Part shown: in pieces, positions 3,754 through 22,100 of the stretch | Numbering within the stretch: position 1 is the first letter of the stretch | Layout of the letters: every line of letters starts with the position of its first letter | Assembly (NCBI GenBank): GCA_018992685.1 | Contig: JACVGT010000003.1 | Location: 1-64,000, forward strand | Direction of reading: 5' to 3' | DNA length: 64,000 bases | Source: Theionarchaea archaeon | Lineage (GTDB): Archaea; Methanobacteriota_B; Thermococci; Methanofastidiosales; SZ-28-30 | Notes under the pieces: model-generated | The model's database searches: none | What the model was told of the DNA's origin: nothing | What the model saw: the letters and a program-made list of their open reading frames with translations, nothing else | Program-made: the position numbers and the translations under genes

Positions 3754-4440
3754 ATGCCAAAAGTGATTGGAATTTGCGGAAGTGAACGACTCAAAGGGAA
3801 TACAGAACAATTCATTCAACGCGCACTGGACGTCATTTCAGACTACGGTATCAAAACAGAGCTCATCACTCTTGCTGACAAAAAGATTATTAGTGGATGT
3901 ACAGCCTGCAACTGGTGTAGATCAAACCGCGCGGAATGTGTGAAAAAAGATGATTTCATGCCAATCTGGAAGAAGATGTATGAGGCAGATGGCATTATCC
4001 TAGGCTCTCCTGTTTACTGGGGAAGTGTTACCGCGAAGATGAAAGCAGTGATCGAGAGGGCAGGACTCATGGCTGAGGGCAGAGAACTGGGTAACGTAGA
4101 TGGCCCGGTCAAAGATCTGGGCTGGCCCTACGACGAAAAGCCCCCCGGCCTGCTCTACCACAAGGTGGGAGGAGCTATTGCCACCACCCGGAGGACAGGA
4201 GCCAATGCAACCCTTGCCGAATTATTGATGTGGTTCATGATCAACAACTTCATTGTTGTGGGCTCCTCATACTGGACCATTGGTGTGGGAACCAAGAGAG
4301 TTGCCAAAGAGACGAAAGGTGGGAAACCCGGAAGCACGCACACCACCACCATGCTGGAAACAGATGTGGAAGGAGCCGTTACCATCAAGCACTTTGGTGA
4401 GAATTTTGCGTGGGTTGTCAACAACCTTCACGATAAGTGA
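3754..4440 (+). CDS. Iron-sulfur flavoprotein (Isf/FMN reductase family), copy 1
   Basis: The protein has a flavodoxin-like fold. An FMN-binding loop, GICGSERLKGN, opens it, and a compact cysteine motif (C49, C52, C55, C62) matches Isf-type flavoproteins that hold a [4Fe-4S] cluster. SPVYWGS is the usual second flavin contact. The long C-terminal part with TTRRTGANATLAELLMWFM is shared with the two paralogues at 8427 and 15568. The frame opens at a TTG at 3724, but that lies within the TATA box region, so translation must begin at ATG 3754 or GTG 3745. It heads the AOR operon and probably moves electrons between ferredoxin and a small acceptor; the acceptor is unknown. Confidence 0.8.
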   Translation: MPKVIGICGSERLKGNTEQFIQRALDVISDYGIKTELITLADKKIISGCTACNWCRSNRAECVKKDDFMPIWKKMYEADGIILGSPVYWGSVTAKMKAVIERAGLMAEGRELGNVDGPVKDLGWPYDEKPPGLLYHKVGGAIATTRRTGANATLAELLMWFMINNFIVVGSSYWTIGVGTKRVAKETKGGKPGSTHTTTMLETDVEGAVTIKHFGENFAWVVNNLHDK

Positions 4441-4457
4441 AGCATGAGGCGATTAAC

Positions 4458-5621
4458 ATGAAAATACTGTTGCTTGGCGGGGCTGGGCTCATGGGTCCAG
4501 CCATTGCCAAGGACTTGGTCAGGAGCAAAGATGTCGAACAGTTGGTAGTCGGGGATATTGTTAAAGATAAGATGGAAACCCTTAAGAAGGAAGCCAAGAG
4601 TGACAAATTACGCCTGGAGATCGTAGATGTTCGAGATCGCGATGGTCTTATTACTTACATGAAAAAAGAAGGGTTTGATGTGGTGATTAATTCTCTGCCC
4701 CACGAGTTCAGCGTTCCCAGCATTGAAACCTGCATAGAAGCAGGTAAAGATGTAGTCGATCTTGCTTTTGAGCCCCCCCAGCTGGAGCTTGATGACAAGG
4801 CACGGAAAGCTGGGGTCTGTGTGGTACCTGCATGTGGGATGGATCCTGGCATCACCAATGTCCTGACAGGATACGGAGTGAGCCAGCTTGATCGGGCAGA
4901 CGAGGTACACATCATTGCAGGCGGCATTCCACAGCAGCCATTCCCGCCTCTTCAGCACAAGATTCTGTTCAGACTGGAAAGCCTGTGGATGGAATATATT
5001 GAACCCTCTCTTGCAATAAGAAACGGGAAAAAAGTGGAACTCAAGACACTCTCTGAAGTTGAGACGGTGGATTTTCCAGGCATAGGTCCCCTGGAATGTG
5101 CTGTAACCCCCACTTTGGCTTCCATGCCCTACACTATCAAAGGAGTCAAGGAAATGGAATGCAAATGTCCCCGCTGGCCGGGTCACTATGATAAGATCAA
5201 AACATTCATCGAATGCAATCTGTTGAGCGGAGAACCCGTTGCTGTGGGGGACCAGAAAGTGGTGCCCAGAAAGCTACTCAGTGCCCTGCTGTCCCCCATT
5301 ATGGAACTGGGAAGAGACGAGAGGGATGTCACCATCATCAGGGTGACAGTGATAGGAGAGAAGGACGGTATTAAGACCCAGCTCACCTATGACATCATTG
5401 ATTGGTATGATGAAAAGCAAAAAGTGACTTCAGTCGCCCGCACCACAGGATACCCGGCCTCCATAGTAGCTCAGATGATTGCCAAGAATGAAATCACTGA
5501 AAAGGGCGTGCTCTTCCCTGAATGTGCTATTACTCCTCAACTATTCCCCTTGTTTGCTCAGGAGCTTGCCAAGAGAGGTATATGTATTGAAGAGACCATA
5601 GAAACCTCACGCACCATGTAA
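4458..5621 (+). CDS. Saccharopine dehydrogenase family oxidoreductase
   Basis: A protein of 387 residues with an N-terminal NAD(P)-binding Rossmann fold (LLLGGAGLMGPAIAKDL) and the C-terminal catalytic domain of saccharopine dehydrogenases; PACGMDPGITNVL matches the conserved active-site region of that family. The frame opens at GTG 4437, overlapping the previous stop, but GAGG at 4445 precedes the ATG at 4458, which starts the fold directly. Members oxidise or form secondary amines between amino acids and oxo acids. Next to an AOR, an attractive role is oxidative cleavage of an amine or opine-like intermediate to an aldehyde or oxo acid; this is inferred from context. It is the second gene of the AOR operon. 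Confidence 0.8.
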   Translation: MKILLLGGAGLMGPAIAKDLVRSKDVEQLVVGDIVKDKMETLKKEAKSDKLRLEIVDVRDRDGLITYMKKEGFDVVINSLPHEFSVPSIETCIEAGKDVVDLAFEPPQLELDDKARKAGVCVVPACGMDPGITNVLTGYGVSQLDRADEVHIIAGGIPQQPFPPLQHKILFRLESLWMEYIEPSLAIRNGKKVELKTLSEVETVDFPGIGPLECAVTPTLASMPYTIKGVKEMECKCPRWPGHYDKIKTFIECNLLSGEPVAVGDQKVVPRKLLSALLSPIMELGRDERDVTIIRVTVIGEKDGIKTQLTYDIIDWYDEKQKVTSVARTTGYPASIVAQMIAKNEITEKGVLFPECAITPQLFPLFAQELAKRGICIEETIETSRTM

Positions 5622-5651
5622 ACAGAACACGGCATGAAAAGGAGAGGAATC

Positions 5652-6185
5652 ATGAAAATAATCAAAGTGAACCCTTCGCGATGCACAGGATGTCGAAGTT
5701 GTGAAATTGCTTGTTCTTTCGAGAACCTGGGCGAATGCAACCCATCCAGAGCTCGGATACACATTATTTCAGACAGGATTAGGGGCATCAATCTGCCCCT
5801 GGTCTGTCAGCAGTGCAGGGATGCCCCCTGCAAGGCAGCTTGCCCCACCGGGGCTCTGGGCGAAGACCCTGAAACCCATGCTGTGATAGTCCACGAGAAC
5901 AAGTGTATTGGATGCAGGCAGTGCGTTCTTGCCTGTCCTTTCGGAGCTATCGACGTCTACCAGGATATGGGTCATTCCTTCAAATGCAACCTGTGCCATG
6001 GCACCCCACAGTGTGTTGAGGCATGCGAGGAAGATGCACTCACCTTTGTGGAAGAAGTTCGCGAGAACAGGGACAAGAACTGGCACATAGCCGAGATTCT
6101 CCAGAAGATCATGCAGGCCAAGGATGCTGATTCCGGACCTGACTTTTCAGGAGACACGTACAGTGAATGGAAGAAGGTGGTATGA
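5652..6185 (+). CDS. Polyferredoxin with four [4Fe-4S] clusters, AOR partner
   Basis: The 177-residue protein contains sixteen cluster-type cysteines in four groups (CTGCRSC..C, CQQCRDAPC..C, CIGCRQC..C, CNLCHGTPQC..C). This is the layout of the HydN/AorA type of electron-transfer subunit found beside tungsten AORs. A GGAG lies just before the ATG at 5652; an upstream in-frame ATG at 5634 would add six residues. The stop overlaps the AOR start (ATGA), which suggests translational coupling and a stable complex. It probably takes electrons from the AOR active subunit and passes them to the flavoproteins or the FrhB-like protein nearby. The last 40 residues are charged and carry no cluster ligands. 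Confidence 0.85.
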   Translation: MKIIKVNPSRCTGCRSCEIACSFENLGECNPSRARIHIISDRIRGINLPLVCQQCRDAPCKAACPTGALGEDPETHAVIVHENKCIGCRQCVLACPFGAIDVYQDMGHSFKCNLCHGTPQCVEACEEDALTFVEEVRENRDKNWHIAEILQKIMQAKDADSGPDFSGDTYSEWKKVV

Positions 6186-8104
6186 TGCACGGATGGGCAG
6201 GTAGGATATTGAGAATTGACCTTTCAAAAGGAAAAATCACTGAGCAGGAGACTCCCAAAGATCTGCGAGCCCTGGTCATTGGGGGGAGAGGAATCAACTC
6301 AAAAATTTTGTATGATGAAGTCTCTCCTGACCTCGACCCCCTGGATCCCCGGGCAAAATTGATAGTGGGTGCCGGTCCTTTTGTAGGCACACTGGTTCCC
6401 ACAGCGTGCAGAGGGACAGTGACCCATAAGGGTCCTTTCACCTTCGCCTTTTGTGACAGCAATTTTGGCGGGTTCTTCACCCCAGAGATGAAATATGCAG
6501 GGTATGATCACCTTGTGGTTGAGGGCAGGTCTGAACAGCCTGTATACGTGTGGATAGATGATGGTCATGTTGAACTTCGGAAAGCTACGTCTCTGTGGGG
6601 ACTGGATACGCTCACATCTTTCAGAGAAATTGAAGATGCTCTTGGAGACCGGGAAGTTCACACCATGCTCATCGGACCCGCGGGAGAGAATCTGGTGCGG
6701 ACTGCCTGTGTCATGGTGGACTACTGGAGAGCAGCGGGATGGGCGGGGACAGGAGCTCTCATGGGTTCCAAGAACCTCAAGGCCATTTCCGTGAGAGGCA
6801 CTCGTGCGTTGACTGTTGCCCAGCCCAAACGATTTGAAGCTGCCTGCAAGAAAGCACGGCAGATGATGATCAACGGACCCAGGACCCCTCTGTACAAGCG
6901 ATATGGTAGGTTGTCTAACATTGAATCTCTCCGCCACCGGGGCGGGGATGGGGTGGAGAACTACCGTATCCCTGACATGCCTGAAGAAGGATTCAAGACC
7001 TTCAATTCAGAGAATATCAGGCAGACCATTTACACACATCGAGAAGGGTGCTTCAACTGTCCAATCGGGTGTGGTCACAGTTTCAAAGTCAAAGTCAATG
7101 GAAAGCACATTCATGCCAGCAAAATAGAGTATGCCCCTGCGGGCGATGTGAAGGCTCTGGGCATTTACAATCCCGAATTTCTGGCCACATGGGTGTATGA
7201 GGTGAATAAATGGGGACTGGATACGACAGGGACTCAAAATGTGATTGCCTTTGCTATGGAATGTTACGAGAACGGTCTCATCACAGACAAAGAAACGGGA
7301 GGCATTGACCTGACCTTTGGAAACGAAGAAGCCACACTAGCTATTCTGCACAAAATCGTGTTTCGAGAGGGTATTGGTGATATTCTGGCAGAAGGTACCA
7401 ATCTGGCTGCCACGAAGATTGGGAAAGGTGCTGAAAAGTATGCTATGACCATCAAGGGAGCTCGATTACATCTGGATCCCCGTATTGGCTGGGGATTGAT
7501 GCTGTCTCATGCAGTGGCCTCTCGAGGAGCAGATCATCTCAAAGGCACACCCTGGATAGAGTTCTGGGATTTCGCAGCAATCAAGGATGAGAACCTGGGA
7601 CAGAAGCTGTTTGGACATCCCAAGTCCATCGACGCAAGCACACCTGAGGGGAAGGAGTTCACCGTGAAATGGTATCAGGAATCCAAAGGGATAATTGACT
7701 CACTGGGGTTCTGTGCAGGCCAGGACAGCTCCACGTCTTTTGAGTACCCTGGTCACGCTGAGATGGCTGAAATGTTTTCTGCCTTGACTGGTCATGAGTA
7801 TTCAGCAGAGGATCTTCAGCTCGTGGGAGAGAGAATATATAATCTAGAGCAGGCGTACAATGTGCGGTGTGGACTGCGAAGAAAGGATGATTCCATCCCC
7901 GAACGATTCTTTGATAAATCCACTCCAACATCCAAGAACGCGAAGATAAAGACAGTGGACAGAGCCACCTTTGAGAAGATGAAAGACAACTACTACGAGC
8001 TGAGAGGATGGGACGTGAAAACAGCCATTCCCACCCAGAAGAAACTGAAGGAACTCGGTCTCAACGATGTAGCAAAAGATCTCAAGGAGTTGGAACATGA
8101 GTAG
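6182..8104 (+). CDS. Aldehyde:ferredoxin oxidoreductase (tungsten/molybdenum-pterin)
   Basis: The 640-residue protein covers the full AOR family length. It oxidises an aldehyde to a carboxylic acid, using a tungsten or molybdenum bis-pterin cofactor and one [4Fe-4S] cluster. The cluster ligands are visible as C290, C293, C297 (CFNCPIGC) and C511 (GFCAGQ). The N-terminal pterin region carries GGRGINSKILYDE, and AGWAGTGALMGSKNLKAI is a family hallmark. The start is ATG 6182 or 6185, overlapping the stop of the polyferredoxin gene. It lies between its ferredoxin partner and a MoaD-like carrier, so electron transfer and cofactor supply are encoded together. The aldehyde is not known from sequence; the neighbouring amine enzymes suggest one derived from an amino compound. 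Confidence 0.92.
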   Translation: MMHGWAGRILRIDLSKGKITEQETPKDLRALVIGGRGINSKILYDEVSPDLDPLDPRAKLIVGAGPFVGTLVPTACRGTVTHKGPFTFAFCDSNFGGFFTPEMKYAGYDHLVVEGRSEQPVYVWIDDGHVELRKATSLWGLDTLTSFREIEDALGDREVHTMLIGPAGENLVRTACVMVDYWRAAGWAGTGALMGSKNLKAISVRGTRALTVAQPKRFEAACKKARQMMINGPRTPLYKRYGRLSNIESLRHRGGDGVENYRIPDMPEEGFKTFNSENIRQTIYTHREGCFNCPIGCGHSFKVKVNGKHIHASKIEYAPAGDVKALGIYNPEFLATWVYEVNKWGLDTTGTQNVIAFAMECYENGLITDKETGGIDLTFGNEEATLAILHKIVFREGIGDILAEGTNLAATKIGKGAEKYAMTIKGARLHLDPRIGWGLMLSHAVASRGADHLKGTPWIEFWDFAAIKDENLGQKLFGHPKSIDASTPEGKEFTVKWYQESKGIIDSLGFCAGQDSSTSFEYPGHAEMAEMFSALTGHEYSAEDLQLVGERIYNLEQAYNVRCGLRRKDDSIPERFFDKSTPTSKNAKIKTVDRATFEKMKDNYYELRGWDVKTAIPTQKKLKELGLNDVAKDLKELEHE

Positions 8105-8390
8105 GTCCAAGACCATTACACTGGACTTTCCTTTTTCAGTGGTGGGAGTTGACCTCCCTGCTCGACACACCGTTGACGTGAAAGGAGACACGGTAGAAGA
8201 TCTCTTCAGAGAACTTTCTTCCCAATACGGGAGAAAGATGAGACGATACTTCTTCGACGAGCAGGGTACCTGGAATTCAGTGCTGAACATCTTAGTCAAT
8301 GAAACTAGTATATTGTATCTGAACCATGAGAAGACGACACTGAAGCCAGGTGATGTGGTAACTGTCCTTTTCCCCTACAGCGGGGGATGA
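8097..8390 (+). CDS. MoaD/ThiS-like sulfur carrier protein
   Basis: The 97-residue ubiquitin-fold protein ends in FPYSGG, the double glycine that is adenylated and thiocarboxylated to deliver sulfur to molybdopterin. PGDVVTVLFPYSGG is typical of MoaD. The start overlaps the end of the AOR gene, implying coupled translation. A cognate activating enzyme is encoded at 21048 in the same island. It probably serves the pterin cofactor of the AOR next door, though MoaD-like proteins can serve other thiolation routes. Confidence 0.85.
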   Translation: MSRSKTITLDFPFSVVGVDLPARHTVDVKGDTVEDLFRELSSQYGRKMRRYFFDEQGTWNSVLNILVNETSILYLNHEKTTLKPGDVVTVLFPYSGG

Positions 8391-8426: not shown

Positions 8427-9155
8427 ATGAAAGAGTTATATGTGTTGGGAATTTGCGGTAGTCAGAGGAAGGGGGGAAATACAGAAAAAGCCTTAGACAT
8501 GGTTCTGTCTGCCCTTTCAGATCATGGCATTAAGACAGAGCTTGTGCAGCTCCACAACAAGGACGTGAAAGCGTGTATCTCCTGCAGATACTGCAGAGCA
8601 ATGCCGGTTGTGGAATGCAGCATAAAGGATGACTTCTATCCTGAGATCTTTGAGAAAATGGTCAAAGCAGACGGCATTATACTTGGTGCCCCGGTCTACT
8701 TTGGCAGCATACCAGCCAAGATGAAAGGACTCCTGGAAAGAGCAGGAATGCTCAGTGAAGGAAGGATCAGCATTGAGACTCCAGTTGATGACAAAAAGTG
8801 GCCCGGAGCACATTCCGGAATTAAATCAGATAAGAAAACGAAAGGAGGAGGCCTCTACAAGGGAAAAGTGGGTGGTGCTATCGTTACCACCCGGAGGACA
8901 GGAGCCAATGCTGCCCTGGCTGAATTGCTGATGTGGTTCATGATCTGCAATTTCACTGTGGTCAGTTCTTCTTATTGGACGGTGCTCATAGGCGGGAAGC
9001 GAATACCAGACGCTGTCAGATTCAAGAAAGAAGGAAAGGAATATTGGACCTCAGATCTGTCCAAGGACACCCTGGAACAGGATGAGGAAGGTAGAGAAGA
9101 CCTCGTCGACTTTGCAGAAAACTTTCAAGATGTGCTGTCCAGGTTGCGGGGCTGA
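8427..9155 (+). CDS. Iron-sulfur flavoprotein (Isf/FMN reductase family), paralogue 2
   Basis: A 242-residue relative of the proteins at 3754 and 15568. It keeps the FMN loop GICGSQRKGGN, the compact cysteines (CISCRYC followed by EC after six residues), SPVYFGS-like GAPVYFGS, and the shared TTRRTGANAALAELLMWFM block. It differs in an inserted lysine-rich segment around residues 125-150 and in its acidic C-terminus, so it is an older paralogue, not a recent copy. The ATG follows GAGAGGTGACATC. It sits between the MoaD-like carrier and the LUD gene in the AOR operon and probably works with the AOR as an electron acceptor. Confidence 0.8.
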   Translation: MKELYVLGICGSQRKGGNTEKALDMVLSALSDHGIKTELVQLHNKDVKACISCRYCRAMPVVECSIKDDFYPEIFEKMVKADGIILGAPVYFGSIPAKMKGLLERAGMLSEGRISIETPVDDKKWPGAHSGIKSDKKTKGGGLYKGKVGGAIVTTRRTGANAALAELLMWFMICNFTVVSSSYWTVLIGGKRIPDAVRFKKEGKEYWTSDLSKDTLEQDEEGREDLVDFAENFQDVLSRLRG

Positions 9156-9170: not shown

Positions 9171-9872
9171 ATGACTGAGAATATTCTCAAAGAGACTGCA
9201 CACGCTCTGAGACAACACGGATTCAACACACAGATAGTCTCTACCCGAGAAGAAGCCTGTGCTGCCATTTTGAGCCATATCCCACTGAATTCTCTGGTAG
9301 GAATTGGAGATTCGGCCACAGTGCGCCAGATTGGAATAATAGAAGCTCTGCACACACGAGGAACCAGTATTATCAACCCCTTTAGAGGGAAATTTCGTCG
9401 TGAGACTGCTGTGGCCAGTCTTCTGGCAGATATCTTTCTCACAGGAATCAATGCAGTCACCACAGAGGGCAGCCTGGTGGATGTCGATGGGGCAGGAAAC
9501 CGTATTGCAGGGACTATTTTTGGTCCACCCGAAGTTCTGGTGGTCGCAGGGCAGAATAAGATAGTCAAAAACGTCAATGAAGCTGTGGAAAGACTTAAAA
9601 CAGTCATTGCACCCCGCCATGCTGCAGGAATGGGATATTCCCTCCCCTGCACACAAATAGGTACCTGTCAGGACTGCAATTCGCCAAAGCGGATTTGCCG
9701 GATAGAAGCAGTCATTCGTCGGGCGCCCATGTACACTCAAACTACCGTGCTTCTCGTGGGAGAAGATCTTGGGCTGAGCTGGGATCCTCATTGGGCACCT
9801 GAAAGAATTAGGAAAATTCACACGCAGTACCTCAGTCATGTGTGGAATCCTGCAGCTCAAGAGCCATTTTGA
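9171..9872 (+). CDS. LUD domain protein (LutC/YkgG-like)
   Basis: The 233 residues match the LUD (DUF162) family: VGIGDSATVRQIG near residue 42, an INAVTTEGSLVDVDGAGNR block, and GPPEVLVVAGQNKIVKN. Family members are linked to lactate or other hydroxy-acid oxidation in complexes with iron-sulfur proteins. A cysteine group in the last third (CTQIGTCQDC, plus C at ICR) could bind a metal. It is the last gene of the AOR operon; a T-rich tract follows near 9895-9916. A role in oxidising an organic acid produced by the pathway is plausible but not shown. Confidence 0.78.
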   Translation: MTENILKETAHALRQHGFNTQIVSTREEACAAILSHIPLNSLVGIGDSATVRQIGIIEALHTRGTSIINPFRGKFRRETAVASLLADIFLTGINAVTTEGSLVDVDGAGNRIAGTIFGPPEVLVVAGQNKIVKNVNEAVERLKTVIAPRHAAGMGYSLPCTQIGTCQDCNSPKRICRIEAVIRRAPMYTQTTVLLVGEDLGLSWDPHWAPERIRKIHTQYLSHVWNPAAQEPF

Positions 9873-10210: not shown

Positions 10211-10250
10211 CTGACAATTTGCAGCATTGTACTACCGAAAAACTTATAAA
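10211..10250 (+). promoter_or_regulatory. Conserved promoter/operator element, copy 2 (diverged)
   Basis: It shares CTGACAATTTG, GCATTGTA and TACCGAAA plus the TATA core CTTATAAAT with the elements at 3674 and 15488, but lacks about ten bases between the first two blocks. It drives the ABC importer operon, with a leader of roughly 35 nt before the ATG at 10305. Confidence 0.65.
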
Positions 10251-10304
10251 TATCTTAAAGACTGCTAGGAGATAGGAGCTAACCATGAGAACGGAGGAAC
10301 AAAT

Positions 10305-11405
10305 ATGATGAGAAAAACGAGAAAAGTTTCCATCACCCTAGTCTTGTGCTTGGCGATGGCAGCTCTTGTGGTAAGTGGCTGTATTTCGCAGGAAGAAGAA
10401 AAAACAACCACTGAAACAACGCCCCCCGAAAAACAGAAGGTCGTTCTTGGAACATTTGCAGGCCCCTACGAGGACTACGTCAAGGAAATCGCCGCAGGCT
10501 TTGAAGCAGAGACCGGCATTCAAGTGGAAGTCGTTGCCGTGAACAGTGACAATGAATGGATTTCGAAAATAAAACTGTGGGGAGATGAGCCTGAAGTTCA
10601 TGTCATGTATCTTGGATTACCTCGATTCATCCGAGGAGCCCTTGATGGATTGTGGGCACCTTTGGATATGGACAACATACCTCAATGGAAGAACCTGTAC
10701 CAGGTCGGGCTGGATGCAGGAAAAGGTACAGACGGTGTACAGTATGGAGTACCCTATGACTTTGCAGCCTGGGGTATAATCTACCAGAATGAGCGAGTGT
10801 CAGAGCCCCCCACATCCTGGAAGGACCTCTGGAATGTTGAGAAGTTCGGCAATGTGGGAAGCGAGACCTGGTTTGATCAGTTCTATGCTGCCACAGGAGT
10901 AACCTGGGGCTATGCGCCGGAGCAGTACGAAGAGATTATTGCAAAGATAAAAGAACTGCAGGGTACCGGCGGATTCAGACTTGCCGAATCATATTCCAAG
11001 ATGCAGACTATGCTGCAGATGGGAGATATCAACATGGCAGGGTGCTGGGACGGAAGAGCCTACACCTTTGAGAAAGCAGGTGTTAATGTAGGATGGGTCA
11101 TTCCACAGGAAGGTGCAGTGGCCTGGATTGGACTTCTTGCCATACCTAAGGGTGTTCCCAACCAGGAACTGGCTGAAAAGCTCATTGACTACATTATCAG
11201 CCCAGGTCCTCAGCTGACCTTTGTGGATCTGATTCACTACGGGTCTCCCAACAAGCTCACCCAGCTGACTCCTGAACTGCAGGCCATGGTAGTAGATGGA
11301 GAACAGGAAGTCAACTCTCTGATAGGAATGGAATACTACTGGTTCATGGCTCAGCACTATGATGAGATTCAGGAGTTGTGGGAGCGAGAAATTCTTGGAG
11401 GATGA
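10305..11405 (+). CDS. ABC importer substrate-binding lipoprotein (spermidine/putrescine type)
   Basis: The 366-residue protein begins with a lipoprotein signal: basic residues, a hydrophobic stretch and lipobox VSGC with Cys26 as the anchor. A Thr/Glu-rich linker follows, then a periplasmic-binding-protein fold of the family that contains PotD and ferric-iron binders (VVLGTFAGPYEDYVKEIAAG, YGVPYDFAAWGIIYQN). It would capture a solute outside the membrane for the permeases at 12569 and 13478. The ligand cannot be read from sequence; polyamines or other cationic organics are typical. GGAGGA precedes ATG 10305; ATG 10308 is equally possible. Confidence 0.85.
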   Translation: MMRKTRKVSITLVLCLAMAALVVSGCISQEEEKTTTETTPPEKQKVVLGTFAGPYEDYVKEIAAGFEAETGIQVEVVAVNSDNEWISKIKLWGDEPEVHVMYLGLPRFIRGALDGLWAPLDMDNIPQWKNLYQVGLDAGKGTDGVQYGVPYDFAAWGIIYQNERVSEPPTSWKDLWNVEKFGNVGSETWFDQFYAATGVTWGYAPEQYEEIIAKIKELQGTGGFRLAESYSKMQTMLQMGDINMAGCWDGRAYTFEKAGVNVGWVIPQEGAVAWIGLLAIPKGVPNQELAEKLIDYIISPGPQLTFVDLIHYGSPNKLTQLTPELQAMVVDGEQEVNSLIGMEYYWFMAQHYDEIQELWEREILGG

Positions 11406-11436: not shown

Positions 11437-11462
11437 AAATACAGTAAACATAGGTGATTGAA

Positions 11463-12572
11463 ATGGTCATGCCAACTGAGAGAAGGAAAAGTTCAACTTT
11501 GACGGTAGAGTCTTTGACAAAAGTTTTCGGAAATCATACAGCTGTAGATGAGATTTCCTTTCAGACAATCCCGGGGGAGATAACAGCGTTCCTTGGCCCC
11601 AGTGGATGCGGAAAAACCACTACTCTCAGGATTATTGCGGGGTTAGAAAGTCCCACCAGCGGGAGTGTGTACATTGACGGGGAGCAGGTCAATGACGTCC
11701 CTGCTCATAGAAGAGACATTGGACTCGTATTTCAAGATTATGCATTATTTCCTCATATGACAGTACGGCAAAACATTGAGTTTGGCCTGAAGATTAAGGG
11801 GTTGAATCAGCAGGAAATTCAGGAAAGACTGGAAAAATCTCTGACTCAGGTGAATTTGGCAGGGAAGGAAGACAGATATCCCCAGCAGCTCAGTGGAGGA
11901 GAGCAGCAACGAGTGGCTGTGGCAAGAACACTGGTCACGCAGCCCCGCGTTCTCCTCTTTGATGAGCCCTTGAGCAACCTGGATGCCAAACTGCGGGAAT
12001 CCACGAGGCTGGAACTTCATAACCTGCAGAGAAAGCTGGGCATCACATCAATTTATGTTACTCATGATCAGATTGAAGCATTTGCCATTGCAGACAAGAT
12101 CATGTTGATGAACAAGGGAAAGATTGATCAATTCGGCACACCTGAGGAGATCTACGCCAGTCCGCGAACAGCATTCGCAGCTGACTTCATTGGAACATCA
12201 AATATTCTAGAAACGACTGTGCGATCAGTTAACCAAGGAATATGTACACTAGCTCTTAAGAATGGTCAGATGATTACAGGATTCGCAGTGGGGAAAGCCT
12301 CTGAAGTTTCACCGGGAGATCACCTCCTGGTAATGATCAGAACACAGAAGATCAGAATGACCAATACCAAACCAGAAAGGGGTCAGGTAAATATTCTGCC
12401 TGGAAAATGTCTGTATAAGGTCTTTCTCGGTGACTCCACCCGATGTCTCCTGGATGCTGAAGGCATCAGGCTCACTGCTGACTGTGAGAGTGAATGCGTC
12501 ACCAATGTGAGAGAGGGAGATGTCTATGTCTCCTTTGACGTGAGCGCAGTGGTTCCGGTAGGGAGAGGGTGA
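11463..12572 (+). CDS. ABC importer ATP-binding protein (PotA-like)
   Basis: The 369-residue ATPase shows Walker A GPSGCGKT at residues 45-52, a Q-loop in VFQDYALFP, the signature LSGGEQQRVAVAR and Walker B LLFDEPLSNLDAKLRE, followed by the switch histidine in YVTHDQ. The C-terminal 120 residues form the TOBE regulatory domain typical of polyamine and sugar importers. The frame opens at GTG 11454; ATG 11463 or 11469 is preferred because AGGTG at 11452 then serves as ribosome binding site. It powers uptake through the two permeases that follow directly. Confidence 0.9.
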   Translation: MVMPTERRKSSTLTVESLTKVFGNHTAVDEISFQTIPGEITAFLGPSGCGKTTTLRIIAGLESPTSGSVYIDGEQVNDVPAHRRDIGLVFQDYALFPHMTVRQNIEFGLKIKGLNQQEIQERLEKSLTQVNLAGKEDRYPQQLSGGEQQRVAVARTLVTQPRVLLFDEPLSNLDAKLRESTRLELHNLQRKLGITSIYVTHDQIEAFAIADKIMLMNKGKIDQFGTPEEIYASPRTAFAADFIGTSNILETTVRSVNQGICTLALKNGQMITGFAVGKASEVSPGDHLLVMIRTQKIRMTNTKPERGQVNILPGKCLYKVFLGDSTRCLLDAEGIRLTADCESECVTNVREGDVYVSFDVSAVVPVGRG

Positions 12573-14287: not shown

Positions 14288-15442
14288 ATGGGTTCCTCAC
14301 GGTATCAGTTCCTGGCTTTGGTGACAGTGGGCGGGCTAATCAGCTATGTGGCGAAAATGCTAATCCCGCCCCTGCTCCCCATTCTTCAGGATGAATTTGC
14401 CATAACCAATTTTCAGGCAGGATTGCTCATGACCGGATACATGGGAGCATATGCTCTGGCCCAGATACCTTCTGGGTTACTGGGAGAGAAATTCGGGAGA
14501 CGACGAGTCATGGCCATAGGCATGGCAGGGTCAGCAGTGACCTCTCTCCTGGTGGCTTTTTCACAATCATATGTCCACATACTCTTGCTGCGGATGTTGT
14601 TCGGGGTTTTTTCGGGGAACTACTACACTCCCGCTACGTCCATTCTGGCCCAGAGATTCAGTGCAAAAGAACGCGGAATGGCGCAGGGAATTTTGATGAT
14701 GGGAGTGCCTGCAGGAACAGCTCTGGCTCCTCTTCTTGCCCTGCCTGTTTCTGAGCAGTGGGGATGGAGAATGAGTTTTCTCCTGGTTTCTTTGGCTGGA
14801 ATTGCAGTTTCGATTCTGTTCTACATACTCACTGAGGAGAAGAAGGAACCCACGCACATGAGAGATCAGATGGTATGGTCTTCCCACATATTCACTATTG
14901 GTATATGCTCTTTTTTCACGGGGGCTACAGTATTTGGATTTCTAACATTTTTCCCGAAGTTTCTTCTATCCAAAGGACTGGAACCAGAGACAGCAGCCTT
15001 TCTCTTCTCAATGCTGGCAATATCAGGACTTGTTGCTGTACCAGCATGCGGGAGACTGTCAGATATTTTGGGACGATTCAAGGTGCTGCTGATATTATTC
15101 ACTGTGCTCTTATTGTCACTTATGGGGTTCTTATTGGTGCCTCCTCGCTTTTTTCCTGTTCTTGTCATACCTACAGGGGCTGTTCTTTCCGGTTACGTTC
15201 CTCCCCTGATGGCGTTTGTAGCTGACCTGTCTCCCGTCAGGGCTCGAGGTTTCTGGATCGGGTATCTCAATACCATGGCATTCGTGGGCGCTGCTTTTGG
15301 CTCAGCCATGGCGGGACTCATCCTTGATCACTATACTTATTCTGAGTTGATTCAGTTCTTCGTCGTGCTGGTGCTGGTCGCCTTGATCATTTACCTGGCA
15401 AAGGTGAGGACAATACCTCGAACTGTGTTGACTTCCAATTAA
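14288..15442 (+). CDS. Major facilitator superfamily transporter
   Basis: The 384-residue protein has about twelve membrane segments. The loop GEKFGRRRVMAIG between segments 2 and 3 is the MFS signature, repeated more weakly as GRLSDILGRFK in the second half. It starts nine bases after the PotC-like gene and likely belongs to the same transcript. It could import an alternative form of the substrate or export a product; direction cannot be told from sequence. Confidence 0.85.
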   Translation: MGSSRYQFLALVTVGGLISYVAKMLIPPLLPILQDEFAITNFQAGLLMTGYMGAYALAQIPSGLLGEKFGRRRVMAIGMAGSAVTSLLVAFSQSYVHILLLRMLFGVFSGNYYTPATSILAQRFSAKERGMAQGILMMGVPAGTALAPLLALPVSEQWGWRMSFLLVSLAGIAVSILFYILTEEKKEPTHMRDQMVWSSHIFTIGICSFFTGATVFGFLTFFPKFLLSKGLEPETAAFLFSMLAISGLVAVPACGRLSDILGRFKVLLILFTVLLLSLMGFLLVPPRFFPVLVIPTGAVLSGYVPPLMAFVADLSPVRARGFWIGYLNTMAFVGAAFGSAMAGLILDHYTYSELIQFFVVLVLVALIIYLAKVRTIPRTVLTSN

Positions 15443-15487
15443 CGTGCATCAGCCACTTAGAAGTAATGCAATAATTAGTCTCATCAA

Positions 15488-15540
15488 TTTGACAATTCCG
15501 ATGATTTGTTGCATTATAGTACCGAAATATTTATAAATTG
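15488..15540 (+). promoter_or_regulatory. Conserved promoter/operator element, copy 3
   Basis: This is identical over 53 bp to 3674-3726, including TTTGACAATT, the ACCGAAA BRE and the TATA core. The following ribosome-binding region differs, so the identity is bounded. It drives the third operon of the island. Confidence 0.7.
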
Positions 15541-15567: not shown

Positions 15568-16254
15568 ATGCCAAAAGTGATTGGAATTTGCGGAAGTGAA
15601 CGACTCAAAGGGAATACAGAGCAATTCATTCAACGCGCACTGGACGTCATTTCAGACTACGGTATCAAAACAGAGCTCATCACTCTTGCTGACAAGAATA
15701 TCAAGGGTGGCTGTATAGGCTGCATATGGTGCAGAGCTAACCGCGCAGAATGTTGCATAAAGGACGATTTCATGCCAATCTGGAAGAAGATGTATGAAGC
15801 CGATGGCATTATTGTGGGATCCCCTGTGTACTGGGGAAGTGCTACTGCCAAGATGAAAGCGGTCCTTGAAAGAGCAGGGACAGTCAGTGAGGGCAGAGAA
15901 CTGGGTAACGTAGATGGCCCGGTCAAAGATCTGGGCTGGCCATACGACGAAAAGCCCCCCGGCCTGTTCTACCACAAGGTGGGAGGAGCTATTGCCACCA
16001 CCCGGAGGACAGGAGCCAATGCAACCCTTGCCGAATTACTGATGTGGTTCATGATCAACAACTTCATTGTTGTGGGGTCCTCATACTGGACCATTGGTGT
16101 AGGAACCAAGAGAGTTGCCAAAGAGACGAAAGGTGGGAAAGCCGGAAGCACGCACACCACCACCATGCTGGAAACAGATGTGGAAGGAGCCGTTACCATC
16201 AAGCACTTTGGCGAGAATTTTGCGTGGGTTGTCAACAACCTTCACGGAAAATAA
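15568..16254 (+). CDS. Iron-sulfur flavoprotein (Isf/FMN reductase family), copy 3
   Basis: This is a near-identical copy of the gene at 3754, including its promoter. The two differ mainly in two patches: the cysteine region (here CIGCIWCRANRAECC, with an extra adjacent cysteine) and a stretch around residues 85-110. In those patches the copy is closer to the paralogue at 8427 (ECxIKDDF), which suggests gene conversion. The patchy change of the cluster region may tune redox potential or partner choice. The start is ATG 15568 or GTG 15559; the TTG at 15538 lies in the TATA region. It opens the third operon. Confidence 0.82.
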   Translation: MPKVIGICGSERLKGNTEQFIQRALDVISDYGIKTELITLADKNIKGGCIGCIWCRANRAECCIKDDFMPIWKKMYEADGIIVGSPVYWGSATAKMKAVLERAGTVSEGRELGNVDGPVKDLGWPYDEKPPGLFYHKVGGAIATTRRTGANATLAELLMWFMINNFIVVGSSYWTIGVGTKRVAKETKGGKAGSTHTTTMLETDVEGAVTIKHFGENFAWVVNNLHGK

Positions 16255-16294: not shown

Positions 16295-17422
16295 ATGCAT
16301 GAAATTCCCCTTGTAGACCTTGCACGGCAGTATCAGAGTATCAAACACGAAATTGATACAGTAATCCAGAGAGTACTGGAGAAGGGAATATTCGTATTAG
16401 GAGAGAACGTACAGAAGTTTGAAGAAGAGTTTTCCCGGTATTGTGGTGTCCGCTACGGAATAGGAGTCAACTCTGCTACTGATGCTCTGACTATTGCGTT
16501 GAAAGCTGTAGGAGTAAAAGAGGGAGATGAAGTCTTAGTACCTGCAAACAGCTTCATTGCGACAGCCAATGTTGTAGTATTCTGTGGAGCAACCCCTGTT
16601 TTTGTTGATGTAGAACCAGATACCCTGAATATGGATCCTGAGAAGGCTGTGAGAGCAATAACAAAGAAAACCAAAGCGATAATTCCCGTTCATCTCCATG
16701 GACATCCCGCAGATATGGACCCTCTTCTTGAGGCTGCTGAGGATCATGACCTGGCCGTCATCGAAGATGTGGCTCAGGCAATCAATGCCCTGTACAAGGG
16801 AAAGAAAGTGGGATCTTTGGGCGACATTGGCTGCTTTAGCTTTTACCCCAGCAAGAACCTGGGAGCATATGGTGACGGAGGATTGAATGTCACCGACAAT
16901 GATGAACTGGCTGAAAGAATCCGTCTCCTCAGGAATTACGGGAGAATAGAAAAAGAGTATAAGCAAACCTATGTTCACCGGCTGATTGGGTACAACAGCA
17001 GGCTTGATGAACTGCAGGCTGCTATCCTTCGGTTGAAACTTACGTACCTGGACGGGTGGACTGACAGGAAACGAGAGATCAGCAAGGAGTATACCAAAGG
17101 GTTTGAAGGGTCAGATGTTGAAGCACCTACTGAGAAAGAGTACGCTCGCCACGTGTACTGGGACTATTGCATCAAAGTGAAAGCCAGGGATGCCCTGGAG
17201 AAAGCTCTTCTTGACAAAGGAATCCACACTGCTGTGCTGTACCGGGTCCCCATACACTTGCAGGAAGCATACGCTTACATGGGGCTCAAAGAAGGCTCAT
17301 TCCCCGTAGCTGAGATGACGTGCAGGCACATTCTTTCTCTGCCCCTGTTCCCTGAACTCACTGAGGAGGAGATACAGTTCGTTATAACGCAGGTTAAGAA
17401 TATGGTGGGAGGATTACCATGA
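16295..17422 (+). CDS. DegT/DnrJ/EryC1/StrS family PLP aminotransferase
   Basis: The 375-residue enzyme has the family features: N-terminal GVNSATDALTIALKA, the PLP-contacting EDVAQAINA, and the Schiff-base lysine K187 in FYPSKNLGAYGDGG. Family members mostly aminate oxo-sugars, but this gene lies among amino-compound catabolic enzymes and away from the glycan genes at 48-57 kb. It may act on a non-sugar oxo compound here, or run in the deaminating direction; both are inference. GAGGTGAGAAC precedes the ATG, and the last four bases overlap the next gene. Confidence 0.85.
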   Translation: MHEIPLVDLARQYQSIKHEIDTVIQRVLEKGIFVLGENVQKFEEEFSRYCGVRYGIGVNSATDALTIALKAVGVKEGDEVLVPANSFIATANVVVFCGATPVFVDVEPDTLNMDPEKAVRAITKKTKAIIPVHLHGHPADMDPLLEAAEDHDLAVIEDVAQAINALYKGKKVGSLGDIGCFSFYPSKNLGAYGDGGLNVTDNDELAERIRLLRNYGRIEKEYKQTYVHRLIGYNSRLDELQAAILRLKLTYLDGWTDRKREISKEYTKGFEGSDVEAPTEKEYARHVYWDYCIKVKARDALEKALLDKGIHTAVLYRVPIHLQEAYAYMGLKEGSFPVAEMTCRHILSLPLFPELTEEEIQFVITQVKNMVGGLP

Positions 17423-18531
17423 ATTCTGTTATGATTGTAGGGCTGGGAGATATTGGAGAACATGTTCTGGAACTCCTCTGCAGAGCCCCTGAGGTTTCTC
17501 ACATTTATACTGCAGATATTAATGAGGAAGCTTCTCTGCGTAAGATCTACAGTGCGCGGGCGGGAGCGGCTCACCAGGGATTCCATCCTTCTATCGAGTT
17601 TGAGAAGGTTGATCTCAATGATGTGGATGCCACAGTTTCCTACATAGAGAGGGTCAACCCTGGAGTGATTATTTCCGCTGTGACGCTCTTAACCTGGTGG
17701 GCGCCAGAGGCTGCAGCGAAGAATATCGATTTTAAGAGGCTGGATGAGGCTGGATTCGGAGCGTGGCTTCCCCTGCACATTGCCCTGACATATAAATTAA
17801 TGAAAGCAGTGAAGAAAGCAGGGATTTCTCCTCCAGTGGTCAACTGTTCTTTCCCTGATGCTATTAATCACATCCTGGGAAAAGTTGGACTGGCGCCCAC
17901 TGTGGGCATTGGAAACTGTGACTTGTTTGTCCCGGAAATCCAGAAAATCGTGGCAGATGTATTTCAGGTATCTATGAAGAGTGTCTCAGTGTACCTGGTA
18001 GGACACCACTACCTGTGTCATGTATTGAATTCGTATCGCTCTACCTTGGAGACTCCCTACTACTTACGTGTGTTCGTGGATTGGAAGGATGTCACAGATC
18101 AGCTTGACGCCGATGACCTTCTTGTGAGAGCCAATACCTACATGCCCAAGGGAGTGCAGGACCATTTCATTGTGGCAGCCTCTGCTATAAAAGACGCGCT
18201 CCATCTCCTCAATGACACACATGAATTAACCTATGCCCCGGGTCCCATGGGCCTCCCTGGCGGGTACCCCGTGCGCATTGGCGGTGGAATGGCCCAGGTG
18301 GAACTGCCAGATGACATCACCCTGGAGGATGCAGTCAGGATTAATGAAGAGTCTCAAAGGCGCGACGGCATTGAACAGGTTCTGGACGATGGGACTGTGA
18401 TATTCCCCACAAAGACGGTTGAAGTCATGGATGAGATCCTGGGCTATCACTGTGAATCTTTGGCCCTGGAGGAGAGCGGAGAACGAGCGAAGGAACTTCT
18501 GGCGGCCTACAAGAAAAAGCTTTCAGGCTGA
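17419..18531 (+). CDS. NAD(P)-binding Rossmann oxidoreductase
   Basis: A 370-residue protein opening with a dinucleotide-binding site, MIVGLGDIGEHVLELL, and an acidic residue after beta-2 (TADINEE), which favours NAD. The rest resembles saccharopine-dehydrogenase-like or related amino/hydroxy-acid dehydrogenases only loosely (CSFPDAINHILGKVGL, GIGNCDLFVPEI), so the substrate is not assignable. It overlaps the aminotransferase gene by four bases and is followed after ten bases by a dipeptidase, indicating one operon. With an aminotransferase it could form or break an amine by a reduction-oxidation step. Confidence 0.65.
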   Translation: MNSVMIVGLGDIGEHVLELLCRAPEVSHIYTADINEEASLRKIYSARAGAAHQGFHPSIEFEKVDLNDVDATVSYIERVNPGVIISAVTLLTWWAPEAAAKNIDFKRLDEAGFGAWLPLHIALTYKLMKAVKKAGISPPVVNCSFPDAINHILGKVGLAPTVGIGNCDLFVPEIQKIVADVFQVSMKSVSVYLVGHHYLCHVLNSYRSTLETPYYLRVFVDWKDVTDQLDADDLLVRANTYMPKGVQDHFIVAASAIKDALHLLNDTHELTYAPGPMGLPGGYPVRIGGGMAQVELPDDITLEDAVRINEESQRRDGIEQVLDDGTVIFPTKTVEVMDEILGYHCESLALEESGERAKELLAAYKKKLSG

Positions 18532-18541
18532 AGGTGAGTGT

Positions 18542-19594
18542 ATGAGTAATCAACATGATCATGTTCAGAGCATTCTGGAAAAGGCAATCGTCATTGACGG
18601 TCACTCCGATATGCTCAATGATGTTATAGCCAAGAGAGACCAGGGAGAAACGGCTGTCATCGCCACCCGACATCTCAAGCGACTGAACCAGGGAGGCTGT
18701 GATGGACAAATCTTTGCCATTTATGTAGAAGCACTTTACAAGCCTGATATGGCCCTAAAACGGGCTATCAGACTGGCAGACTCCCTTTTCCTGGAGATCG
18801 AGGAAGCGCAGGGAAAGATCAGGCTGTGCTATACTGCTGATGACTTTGTGAAAGCAAAGAAAGAAGGAAGCCATGCTGCCCTCTTGGGAATGGAAGGAGC
18901 AGAACCAGTGGCTTCCGATGTGGTGTGGCCCAGCAAGAAACCTCCTGACATGAGTAGACTGCACTTTTTCTACAAAATTGGATTGCGACATGTGGGATTC
19001 ACCTGGCAACAGCGAAACCAGGTGGCCGACGGCGTGGGAGAAGCCCAGGCCGACGGTGGATTGACCAACTTTGGTGCAGAACTGGTAAAAGAAATGAACA
19101 ACCTGGGAATGGTGATAGACCTCGCTCATATAGCAGAGAAAAGCTACTTTGACGTCATGGAAATAACTCGGGATCCTGTAATTGTATCTCACACCAACTG
19201 TAAAGCTGTGTATGATTTTGAACGGTGCATCTCAGATGAACAGATTCACACCCTGGCTGAGAATGGTGGTGTTATGGGAGTGTGTTTCTATCCTGCTCTT
19301 GTGGACGAGAAGGTTCCCAGTCTGGAACGGGTCCTCGACCATGTGGACCATGCTGTCAACCTTGTAGGTGTTGATCACGTGGGATGGGGAGCAGATTTTG
19401 CAGACTATATCCAGTGGAGTGCAGACGAAGTGGGACCTGACATTGAGGAGAAACCCAAGACAGCAGGACTTGAAGATGTCACCAAGCTGCCGAATTTCAC
19501 CGGCGGGTTGCTGGACAGGGGATATTCAGACCAGGACATCACCAAGATACTGGGAGGAAATTACCTTCGAGTATTCAAGCGAGTCCTGAGGTAG
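18542..19594 (+). CDS. Membrane dipeptidase-type amidohydrolase (peptidase M19)
   Basis: The 350-residue protein carries the metal site of renal-dipeptidase-like enzymes: H21 and D23 in DGHSDML, the bridging Glu in GMEGAEP, and His residues in DLAHI and VSHTNC. A long C-terminal GVDHVGWGADF block is also typical. It hydrolyses dipeptides or similar amide-linked amino acid conjugates, using two zinc ions. An upstream frame extends to 18419 but overlaps the previous gene; AAGGTGAG before ATG 18542 fixes the start. No signal peptide is present, so it acts in the cytoplasm on an imported compound. Confidence 0.88.
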   Translation: MSNQHDHVQSILEKAIVIDGHSDMLNDVIAKRDQGETAVIATRHLKRLNQGGCDGQIFAIYVEALYKPDMALKRAIRLADSLFLEIEEAQGKIRLCYTADDFVKAKKEGSHAALLGMEGAEPVASDVVWPSKKPPDMSRLHFFYKIGLRHVGFTWQQRNQVADGVGEAQADGGLTNFGAELVKEMNNLGMVIDLAHIAEKSYFDVMEITRDPVIVSHTNCKAVYDFERCISDEQIHTLAENGGVMGVCFYPALVDEKVPSLERVLDHVDHAVNLVGVDHVGWGADFADYIQWSADEVGPDIEEKPKTAGLEDVTKLPNFTGGLLDRGYSDQDITKILGGNYLRVFKRVLR

Positions 19595-19650
19595 TTCAAA
19601 TAGGTGGAGGTGAGTTAACGAACACGATATCGGGTACTCTTGGAGAGTTC

Positions 19651-21012
19651 TTGTCGCGCCTGACGTTTGATGAACTCCCTGAAGATGTGGTCCACCAGGC
19701 CAAGAGAATCACTCTTGATACTCTTGGGTGCATGATGGGAGGGTATCAAACCGATCTTGGTGCATCCTTCATCAACCTGGTGAAATCTGTAGATGGGAAG
19801 TCCCAGGCCACACTCATTGGTGACAAAGGAAAACACTCCTGGATTTTCGCTGCCATGGGGAACAGTTACTTAGCAGACCTTCTGGACTACGAGCAGACCC
19901 TGACAGGGCACGAAAGTGCCACCATTGTCCCTGCTGCCCTGGCAGCCGGAGAATTTACCGCTGCCTCCGGGAGAGCAGTTATCAGAGCAGTAGTGGGTGC
20001 ATATGAAATCCAATCACGTATTGGACTGGCAATTGCACCGTCTCCAGCTCGATTCAAACAGATCGCCAGTCCCAGTATTGAGATCAACCATACCTTTGGA
20101 GCAGCGGCAGCTGCAGGGGCCCTCTTTACCATGAAGGCGAGTGACCTGGGGAAAGTGCTTAACATGGCAGGTGATCTCTCACCCATTCCTGCCATTTACA
20201 AGTTCCTGGAACGTCCTGCCTCACAGCTCAAAGGGAAGTACTGGTGGTGCACTCTTGCAGGCTGCTTCAGTGTGCTGCTGTGTCAATCAGGATTTTACGG
20301 CCCCAGAGATATACTTTCGGGGGAGCATGGGTACTGGATTTGTGCAGGATCAGACCAGTGTGACTTTGAGGCATTCACCAGGGATCTGGGAGTGGATTAT
20401 TACATCATGGGAGATTCTTTCAAACCATACCCTTCCTGCAGGTGGACGCACCCTGCCCTGGATGGAATCGATTCAATCGTGAAGGCTCATGCTCTTCACG
20501 CAGATGATATAGCCTCAGTCACCATCAGAACGTCACTGGTTATCAATGATTTCAACCTCAACGATCAACACCCTGTCTCAATGGTGGATGCAGAGTTTTC
20601 TCTTCCCTACAGTGCGGCCATGGTCATCTTGAACATTCCTCCCGGAGTCGCATGGCATCTCCCTGAAACACGGGAGGATGAAAAAGTGCAGGATATCTGT
20701 CAGAAAGTAGAAATAATCACAGATGAGGAACTGAACAGACAGTACTTCGAATCCAAGACTGAACGGGCGAACCCCGCCCTTGTAGAAATCGAGACCGTGA
20801 GTGGAGACGTGTATACTGAACTTGTAACCTGTCCAAAAGGAGATCCTTCTAACGCAATGAGCGATGCAGAACTTGAGCAGAAGGTTCTTCGGCTTGTTAT
20901 GCCCCGCCTGGATTCTTCTCAGGCCCGGGCCTTGATTGATCTGGTGTGGAATCTGGAGAAGGTGGAGGACATTTCGCAGGTGACCGACATGATACGCCTG
21001 CATTTCCAGTAG
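19651..21012 (+). CDS. MmgE/PrpD family protein
   Basis: A protein of at least 453 residues in the 2-methylcitrate dehydratase / aconitate decarboxylase family (DELPEDVVHQAKRITLDTLGCMMGG, DLLDYEQTLTGHESATIVPAALAAGE). Members dehydrate or decarboxylate tricarboxylic-type acids or act on amide-ring compounds. The first conventional start is TTG 19651, but the family's N-terminal helix is encoded upstream (TLGEFLSRL), and GGAGGTG at 19606-19612 is ideally placed for an ACG codon at 19618. So either a non-AUG start or an ATG-to-ACG change is likely. No citrate-cycle partners lie nearby, so its substrate is probably specific to this pathway. Confidence 0.8.
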   Translation: MSRLTFDELPEDVVHQAKRITLDTLGCMMGGYQTDLGASFINLVKSVDGKSQATLIGDKGKHSWIFAAMGNSYLADLLDYEQTLTGHESATIVPAALAAGEFTAASGRAVIRAVVGAYEIQSRIGLAIAPSPARFKQIASPSIEINHTFGAAAAAGALFTMKASDLGKVLNMAGDLSPIPAIYKFLERPASQLKGKYWWCTLAGCFSVLLCQSGFYGPRDILSGEHGYWICAGSDQCDFEAFTRDLGVDYYIMGDSFKPYPSCRWTHPALDGIDSIVKAHALHADDIASVTIRTSLVINDFNLNDQHPVSMVDAEFSLPYSAAMVILNIPPGVAWHLPETREDEKVQDICQKVEIITDEELNRQYFESKTERANPALVEIETVSGDVYTELVTCPKGDPSNAMSDAELEQKVLRLVMPRLDSSQARALIDLVWNLEKVEDISQVTDMIRLHFQ

Positions 21013-21047
21013 ACTCTAGCCCAGCAGCCAGGAAGGAGTAGTTATCC

Positions 21048-22100
21048 ATGAACCAGAACTCTTATATTTCTGGCCGTGCCACCATATCCATGGATCGATA
21101 CGTACGGCAGGTCCTTCTTTCTCAGATAGGGGAGGAAGGCCAGAGAGCGCTCCATGACTCATCGGTTGCCATCATAGGATGCGGCGCCCTGGGCTCATCC
21201 ATTGCAGAACACCTTACCCGGGCAGGAGTTGGAACCATTCTGGTAGTTGATAGAGACTTTATTGAGCTCTCCAACCTGCAGAGGCAGCATTTGTTTACTG
21301 AAATGGATGTAGGAGAGCCCAAGGCAGAGACTGCAGAGACCAAGTTGAAGGCCATCAACTCAGACATCTCCATTACGGGCATTGTGGATGATATCACCTC
21401 CCGAAATGTAGAGCACTACATTCAGGACAGAACTCTTGTCCTGGATGGAACTGATAACCTGGACGTGAGATTTCTGCTCAACGATGCCTGTAACAAGAAC
21501 AAGATTCCCTGGATTTTTGGGGCATGTGTGGCTGTCCACGGAATGAGTATGAATATCCAGCCTGAAGGACCCTGTCTGCGCTGTCTATTTCCCCAAATCC
21601 CTCCCCGTGATAGTATTCCCACCTGTGACACAGTGGGTATCATGAATACCCTGCCCACGATAGTGAGTTCCATCCAGTCAACAGAGGCCATAAAATACCT
21701 GGTGAGCGGACAGCTTGATTCAGGCCTTCTGGTGGTCGACGTGTGGGAGAGAGACGTCCGCACCATCGACGTTTCTCAGAGGAAGAACTGCCCATGCTGT
21801 GTGGATCATATCTATGAATCCCTAGACGTACGTGCCCCCTCTGCCACGATCCTGTGCGGGAGAGATGCAGTCCAGGTTCGCCCTCCTTTTGAAATGTCAC
21901 TCTCTCTTGACAGCCTGGCAGAATCTCTCTCTTCCAGAGGTTTTGTGAAGAGGACTCCACACATTCTGTTTTTCACTCGTGATACTCAGACCTTCAGTAT
22001 CTTTTCAGATGGACGGGCCATCATAAAGGGTACAAATGATGTAAAGGAGGCACAATCGTTATATGAAGAATATGTAGAAAAGTATGCAAAAGAGAAATAG
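21048..22100 (+). CDS. MoeB/ThiF/HesA-type adenylyltransferase (E1-like)
   Basis: The 350-residue enzyme has the ATP-binding site of ubiquitin-activating-type proteins (IIGCGALGSSIAEHL), the arginine finger context RQHLF, the catalytic Asp in LDGTDNLDVR, and zinc-binding pairs CLRC and CPCC. It would adenylate the C-terminal glycine of the MoaD-like carrier at 8097 for sulfur transfer to the pterin cofactor. The C-terminal 70 residues go beyond the core fold. AAGGAG precedes ATG 21048; ATG 21090 is an alternative. It is the last gene of the third operon, which links cofactor assembly to the AOR pathway. Confidence 0.85.
   Translation: MNQNSYISGRATISMDRYVRQVLLSQIGEEGQRALHDSSVAIIGCGALGSSIAEHLTRAGVGTILVVDRDFIELSNLQRQHLFTEMDVGEPKAETAETKLKAINSDISITGIVDDITSRNVEHYIQDRTLVLDGTDNLDVRFLLNDACNKNKIPWIFGACVAVHGMSMNIQPEGPCLRCLFPQIPPRDSIPTCDTVGIMNTLPTIVSSIQSTEAIKYLVSGQLDSGLLVVDVWERDVRTIDVSQRKNCPCCVDHIYESLDVRAPSATILCGRDAVQVRPPFEMSLSLDSLAESLSSRGFVKRTPHILFFTRDTQTFSIFSDGRAIIKGTNDVKEAQSLYEEYVEKYAKEK

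Follow-up and report, generated by a model that had tools for sequence, protein, structure and literature searches.

What do 18 genes in a row, all on the forward strand, do for an uncultured archaeon, and do they belong together? The genes occupy positions 3754 to 22,100 of a 64,000-nucleotide stretch of Theionarchaea DNA (contig JACVGT010000003.1; hereafter the window), which is part of a 3.03-Mb genome in 45 contigs that is 91% complete. A preliminary description of the window had combined an AOR-family tungsten/molybdenum oxidoreductase, a polyamine-class importer and a set of further enzymes into a single pathway for an amino compound. Open reading frames (ORFs) and Pfam/NCBIfam scans confirmed every gene that it named. 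The genes fall into three transcription units (3754-9872, 10305-15442 and 15568-22100), defined by spacing: -19 to +56 bp inside the units as opposed to 432 and 125 bp between them. We consider it about an even chance (probability roughly 0.5) that the units form one regulon for the import and oxidative breakdown of an amino-acid-derived amine or amide, with a saccharopine-dehydrogenase-family protein (SDH) and the AOR acting in sequence.

The three units are very probably one regulon, because they share an element that is restricted to their starts both in this genome and in that of its congener, the Theionarchaea metagenome-assembled genome isolate SZ_28-30, which is the sole close relative in genome collections. 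The 54 bp upstream of FMN1 and FMN3, the flavoprotein genes that lead units 1 and 3, are identical: the block of unit 1 (3673..3726, + strand; TTTGACAATTCCGATGATTTG...GTACCGAAATATTTATAAATT), composed of an upstream element and an archaeal B recognition element and TATA box (BRE/TATA), shows no difference from that of unit 3 (15487..15540, + strand). The block of unit 2 (10212..10253, + strand; TGACAATTTGCAGCATTGTACTACCGAAAAACTTATAAAT) has TGACAATT and GCATTnTAnTACCGAAA-N3-TTATAAAT in common with the other two and is kept in the congener. Each of the two genomes has exactly three copies of the pattern TGACAATT-N(4-30)-CGAAANNNTTATAAA, all of them at these unit starts, and the reversed sequence that served as control has none. 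Strong BRE/TATA sites numbered four in 84 kb (both strands); three of them are these unit starts, and each of the three has TGACAATT upstream. A generic bacterial promoter/terminator scan gave results at chance level and was not used.

Identity of two promoters can have more than one cause. FMN3 is a paralog of FMN1 (92% DNA identity). The FMN1 and FMN3 promoters of the congener match each other, yet carry species-specific bases, whereas mid-gene positions that distinguish the paralogs are common to both species. From these patterns we conclude that the pair arose by an old duplication and that gene conversion has kept the copies similar (concerted evolution, promoter included). Gene conversion alone could explain the identity between the promoters of units 1 and 3; the importer promoter in unit 2 is an independent witness. 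In gene-by-gene comparisons of the two species, dS (synonymous divergence) was mostly 0.5-1, so the promoter block is not conserved merely for want of time. In the same comparisons the ratio of nonsynonymous to synonymous divergence (dN/dS) was 0.03-0.14 across all genes of the set. Purifying selection at this divergence indicates that the genes are more than chance ORFs.

All three units are kept in the congener, where three contigs together cover the region. Its MmgE/PrpD gene is apparently broken, but the break is a stretch of Ns whose ends are repeated, an assembly gap. We compared the locus with a set of 121 genomes, nearly all of their class, comprising the two genomes themselves and 119 others. 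Within this set an ortholog of the AOR (93%) was found in the congener only, the next best match being at 39%, and a scan of the genome collection for the AOR returned, besides the congener, only 31-36% matches, none with the gene set. The 119 other relatives contained no ortholog of the Rossmann dehydrogenase of unit 3 (ROSS) and only 24-28% relatives of PrpD. According to the preliminary description, relatives with the AOR operon but without the importer and third operon would speak for independent operons. No such genome was seen: the congener retains everything, and the distant relatives have neither AOR nor ROSS orthologs (the importer was not searched for there). The proposal that the three operons belong together is thus upheld by the genome-unique promoter element and by the whole set being kept in the congener. 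A literature search of limited scope found no described pathway with this gene set, which is a new combination of known families.

The SDH gene (4437..5621) encodes the two-domain architecture of saccharopine dehydrogenases (PF03435 and PF16653). Its closest relative in the PDB is PH1688 of P. horikoshii (3abi; 36% identity over 346 residues), which has been cited as an L-lysine 6-dehydrogenase (PMC10413350). The RWPGH segment is kept between the two, and both are without the His-Glu-Glu triad that marks carboxyspermidine dehydrogenases (PMC10413350); the aligned segment in the window protein is TPTLAS. Unlike PH1688, the window SDH is encoded beside AOR operon genes. The SDH gene is contiguous with those for a DmsB/AorA-like four-cluster ferredoxin (5634..6185; Fer4 domains, 17 cysteines in four groups), the AOR (6167..8104) and a ThiS/MoaD-like carrier (8097..8390; PF02597, moaD_arch), the successive gaps being +12, -19 and -8 bp.

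Searching annotated plasmids with the SDH returned, among the best matches, loci in which the same kinds of genes recur. In Natribaculum luteum, Pot permeases, a solute-binding protein (SBP) and an ATPase are followed by an AOR, an aldehyde dehydrogenase (ALDH), an SDH and a CoA-acylating semialdehyde dehydrogenase. N. longum has the importer, an AOR and an SDH in one row. A frame change apparently disrupts the N. luteum AOR close to its start (4400-4900 of that locus), whereas the N. longum copy is open. Plasmids of two Haladaptatus species carry the same importer type with two ALDH genes and an SDH, and in the proteobacterium Terrarubrum a Pot-type ABC system occurs with an SDH and an ALDH. 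The SBPs of the haloarchaeal loci retain PotD-like acids (DxxE, WxD), and the Natribaculum and Haladaptatus rows are apparently polyamine-oxidation modules. Like the window, they combine this importer class in one row with an SDH-family protein and an enzyme for aldehyde oxidation, but they differ from it in their polyamine-type acids and, in the stretches examined, in having no M19, DegT, PrpD or ROSS homologs. The comparison of gene neighbourhoods in other archaea that the preliminary description had proposed finds the linkage of importer, SDH and AOR or ALDH again in haloarchaea, and the full set in the congener only. This recurrence of importer, amine dehydrogenase and aldehyde oxidation in separate lineages is the strongest argument for the function of the combination. 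Because of these independent loci and the kinship of the SDH to L-lysine 6-dehydrogenase, the conversion of an amine via an aldehyde to an acid is the best model for the core of the pathway.

The ligand is a separate matter. Unit 2 has the composition of the PotABCD class: a solute-binding lipoprotein (10305..11405; SBP_bac_8), a PotA/PhnT2-like ABC ATPase (11454..12572; PF00005), and PotB-like (12569..13477) and PotC-like (13478..14278) permeases, both PF00528; an MFS transporter (14288..15442; PF07690) ends the unit. We take D168, E171 and D257 to be the acidic ligand contacts of PotD. In the window SBP, D168 is lost, E171 is aligned to Asp or Gln and D257 to Gly, whereas Trp229 and Trp255 are kept, which leaves a non-canonical ligand site. 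Its closest plasmid relatives (27-30% identity) belong to Pot-type importers of Pantoea, where the gene adjoins hydantoinase/oxoprolinase and dipeptidase genes, and of Agrobacterium, where it adjoins histidine-utilisation (hut) and hydantoinase genes; unlike the window, these loci have no AOR. A classical polyamine is an unlikely ligand, because the PotD acids are lost and the SBP relatives stand beside hydantoinase, dipeptidase or hut genes. An amide-type amino-acid derivative would fit these neighbours and the M19 enzyme of unit 3 better. The term polyamine-class importer is thus right by family but not borne out at the ligand contacts, and of the earlier model the amine-aldehyde-acid core is supported, by the SDH kinship and the haloarchaeal and proteobacterial parallels; a polyamine as ligand is not supported.

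Starting from what can be read directly (gene content, the shared element, purifying selection and the retention of all the genes by the congener), a pathway can be proposed. The ABC importer would take up the compound, and M19 would hydrolyse an amide or peptide bond. SDH would remove the amino group with NAD(P), yielding an aldehyde, which the AOR would oxidise to the acid, thereby pulling the unfavourable deamination forward. Electrons would pass from the AOR to the four-cluster ferredoxin and on to the Isf flavoproteins. DegT and ROSS may handle a second amino or keto group, and PrpD may dehydrate or epimerise an intermediate. Upon induction of the regulon, sulfur for the dithiolene of the metal cofactor would come from the ThiS-like carrier together with the sole E1.

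Several observations weigh against this proposal. The full set of 18 genes is carried by two genomes only. Identity of the haloarchaeal proteins to those of the window is 36% for the AOR and low for the SDH (30-33%) and the SBPs (20-22%), and the window SBP, without the PotD acidic contacts and with its closest plasmid relatives beside hydantoinase, dipeptidase or hut genes, is a further weak point. In Bathyarchaeia, the highest-ranking orthologs of SDH and M19 are neither clustered together nor near an AOR, and the neighbourhoods of the best orthologs there have no shared set. The closest PDB relatives of the DegT protein (best 7b0d) act on sugars or cyclitols; ROSS, PrpD and the LUD-domain protein are without an assigned reaction in the scheme; and the E1 links unit 3 to the unit 1 carrier but, as no other was found, could just as well have a housekeeping role. 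The AOR itself belongs to its family by domains (AFOR_N, E 9e-72; AFOR_C, E 2e-99). It keeps the [4Fe-4S] cysteines (C-x2-C-x3-C and a distal Cys; CFNCPIGC and GFC) and the catalytic His (H448 in P. furiosus AOR, a His in the aligned RGADH segment). The column of Glu313 (PEYE motif), which we take to be the catalytic Glu of P. furiosus AOR, is Ala in both the MAFFT and the 1aor alignments (KIEYA), although the alignment is ambiguous here, in that a two-residue register shift would put the lone Glu of KIEYA in this column. Because of this Ala, aldehyde oxidation by the AOR is not assured. It is conceivable, if doubtful, that the protein founds a new subfamily which has lost the catalytic Glu and acts on a substrate resembling a hydantoin, an opine or a dipeptide in a reaction other than plain aldehyde oxidation, and that it does so within a dedicated catabolic regulon of archaea whose control extends to the sole E1 that the organism has for sulfur transfer to the tungsten cofactor.

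Other explanations share much of this evidence. True polyamine catabolism, in which spermidine, putrescine or diaminopropane would be imported and oxidised via an aminoaldehyde by the AOR, draws on the Pot-class importer, on the haloarchaeal modules whose SBPs combine PotD-like DxxE and WxD acids with the same SDH family, and on the CoA-acylating semialdehyde dehydrogenase that Natribaculum adds. The window SBP, however, has no equivalents of D168 and D257 (E171 being Asp or Gln) and is closer to the hydantoinase-linked SBPs (30%) than to the haloarchaeal ones (20-22%), and we know of no place for M19, DegT and PrpD in known polyamine routes; we regard this explanation as unlikely. To a biosynthetic cluster, in which DegT, ROSS, M19 and ThiS/ThiF would make a modified or sulfur-containing small molecule, the MFS protein would export it and the AOR would reduce an acid, we give the same low standing. 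The sugar/cyclitol aminotransferases nearest to DegT, the presence of GliJ among the M19 matches and the control of ThiS and E1 by the same promoter element would suit it, but the regulon includes an importer of the high-affinity type and is without ligase, nonribosomal peptide synthetase or sugar-nucleotide genes, and ThiS/MoaD genes next to an AOR are a known maturation arrangement (PMC6365974).

Less probable still is a general regulon for aldehyde or redox stress, with the AOR, the Isf flavoproteins and cofactor supply detoxifying aldehydes and the other genes as passengers. Three Isf flavoproteins, the sole E1 and the AOR are indeed under a common control element, but the same element stands before the importer genes and those of the unit 3 enzymes, and purifying selection on both is strong. 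The scattered SDH and M19 orthologs of Bathyarchaeia, clustered neither mutually nor with an AOR, would suit three unrelated operons that are neighbours by chance; this notion is largely refuted by the genome-unique element shared in two species, by the concerted evolution of the lead genes FMN1 and FMN3, and by the independent loci with importer, SDH and AOR or ALDH, and we consider it very improbable. One catabolic regulon for an amino-acid-derived amine or amide remains, at about even odds, the reading that we prefer.

The remaining genes fit known families to different degrees. An AOR, a four-cluster ferredoxin and MoaD-like maturation genes are already known together, as in the AorABCDE operon of Aromatoleum aromaticum, with its small subunit of four [4Fe-4S] clusters (PMC6365974). 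Compared with that operon, the window has no FAD subunit and adds the amine-dehydrogenase-like gene, Isf flavoproteins and a LUD gene; its AOR is only a distant relative, without Glu at the 313 column. The window AOR, one of five family members in its genome, forms a lone deep branch joined by the congener ortholog only. Upstream of a second AOR (contig C1, about 177200-178800), the DNA is 76-82% like the window ferredoxin gene over short stretches, so that this locus is probably another ferredoxin and AOR pair. The carrier (with its C-terminal GG) and the ThiF/MoeB-like E1 (21048..22100; PF00899, the ThiF domain) are both present, as the preliminary description had it, but not together: the E1, the sole ThiF-family protein found in the window genome and in the congener, stands last in unit 3, and 13 kb separate it from the carrier, its likely partner. 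The FMN_red domain (PF03358) is present in all three flavoproteins, together with a compact C-x2-C-x2-C-x6/7-C motif that fits the C-x2-C-x2-C-x(4-7)-C pattern of the Isf type: FMN1 (3754..4440; C-x2-C-x2-C-x6-C), FMN2 (8427..9155; C-x2-C-x2-C-x7-C) and FMN3 (15568..16254). The LUD-domain protein (9171..9872; PF02589) ends unit 1.

In unit 3, the DegT/DnrJ/EryC1 aminotransferase (16295..17422; PF01041) is followed by ROSS (17419..18531), a Rossmann dehydrogenase whose family has no name and no relative of solved structure; G-x-G-x-x-G is invariant in 25 homologs. A single-sequence structure prediction of ROSS was unusable (mean pLDDT 39.8). Its homologs have as neighbours alanine racemase and C45 peptidase in rhizobia, creatininase in Martelella, and octopine dehydrogenase and MTTB genes in Chloroflexota or Bathyarchaeia, which suggests a general theme of amino-compound metabolism only. 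ROSS orthologs in Bathyarchaeia and Dehalococcoidia (33-49% identity) have an AOR nearby in two loci only; with AORs so abundant this is about the chance rate, and ROSS-AOR proximity was dropped as evidence of linkage. At two Dehalococcoidia loci, MTTB-family genes lie amid several saccharopine-dehydrogenase-like genes, with an AOR in one and ROSS in the other, hinting at methylated-amine use. The metal-ligand motifs DGHSDM (with HxD), GMEG, DLAH and SHTN of M19 (18542..19594; PF01244) align with 3id7 and 5lx0. Near M19 homologs at seven Bathyarchaeia loci, an ORF of about 600-730 residues of unknown kind was found repeatedly. The MmgE/PrpD protein (19651..21012) has both the N- and the C-terminal domain (PF03972 and PF19305). 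It was rejected as a 2-methylcitrate dehydratase, since it reached only 24.9 bits with the NCBIfam PrpD equivalog, whose cut-off is 950. Among proteins of solved structure, its relatives are IRG1 and iminodisuccinate epimerase, the latter acting on an imino acid, but the similarity is low.

Directly behind the ThiF gene, on the opposite strand, lie two overlapping winged helix-turn-helix genes (22107-22751 and 22654-23175; HTH_24) that have an 80-bp repeat in common. The congener also has both, with 96% identity for the second; they are possible regulators of the TGACAATT element. Directly upstream of unit 1 (1813-3540), one ORF fuses a hydrogenase-small-subunit-like domain with two Fer4 motifs and the N and C domains of FrhB; its product is a possible F420 electron acceptor.

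Through the genome-unique promoter element, 18 genes with loose annotation become a single pathway of uncultured archaea that can be tested, and an orphan branch of the AOR family acquires a physiological setting. That a Pot importer recurs with a lysine-6-dehydrogenase-like enzyme and an AOR or ALDH, in haloarchaea as well as in a proteobacterium, suggests a general oxidative deamination module, which could be assayed in cultured haloarchaea.

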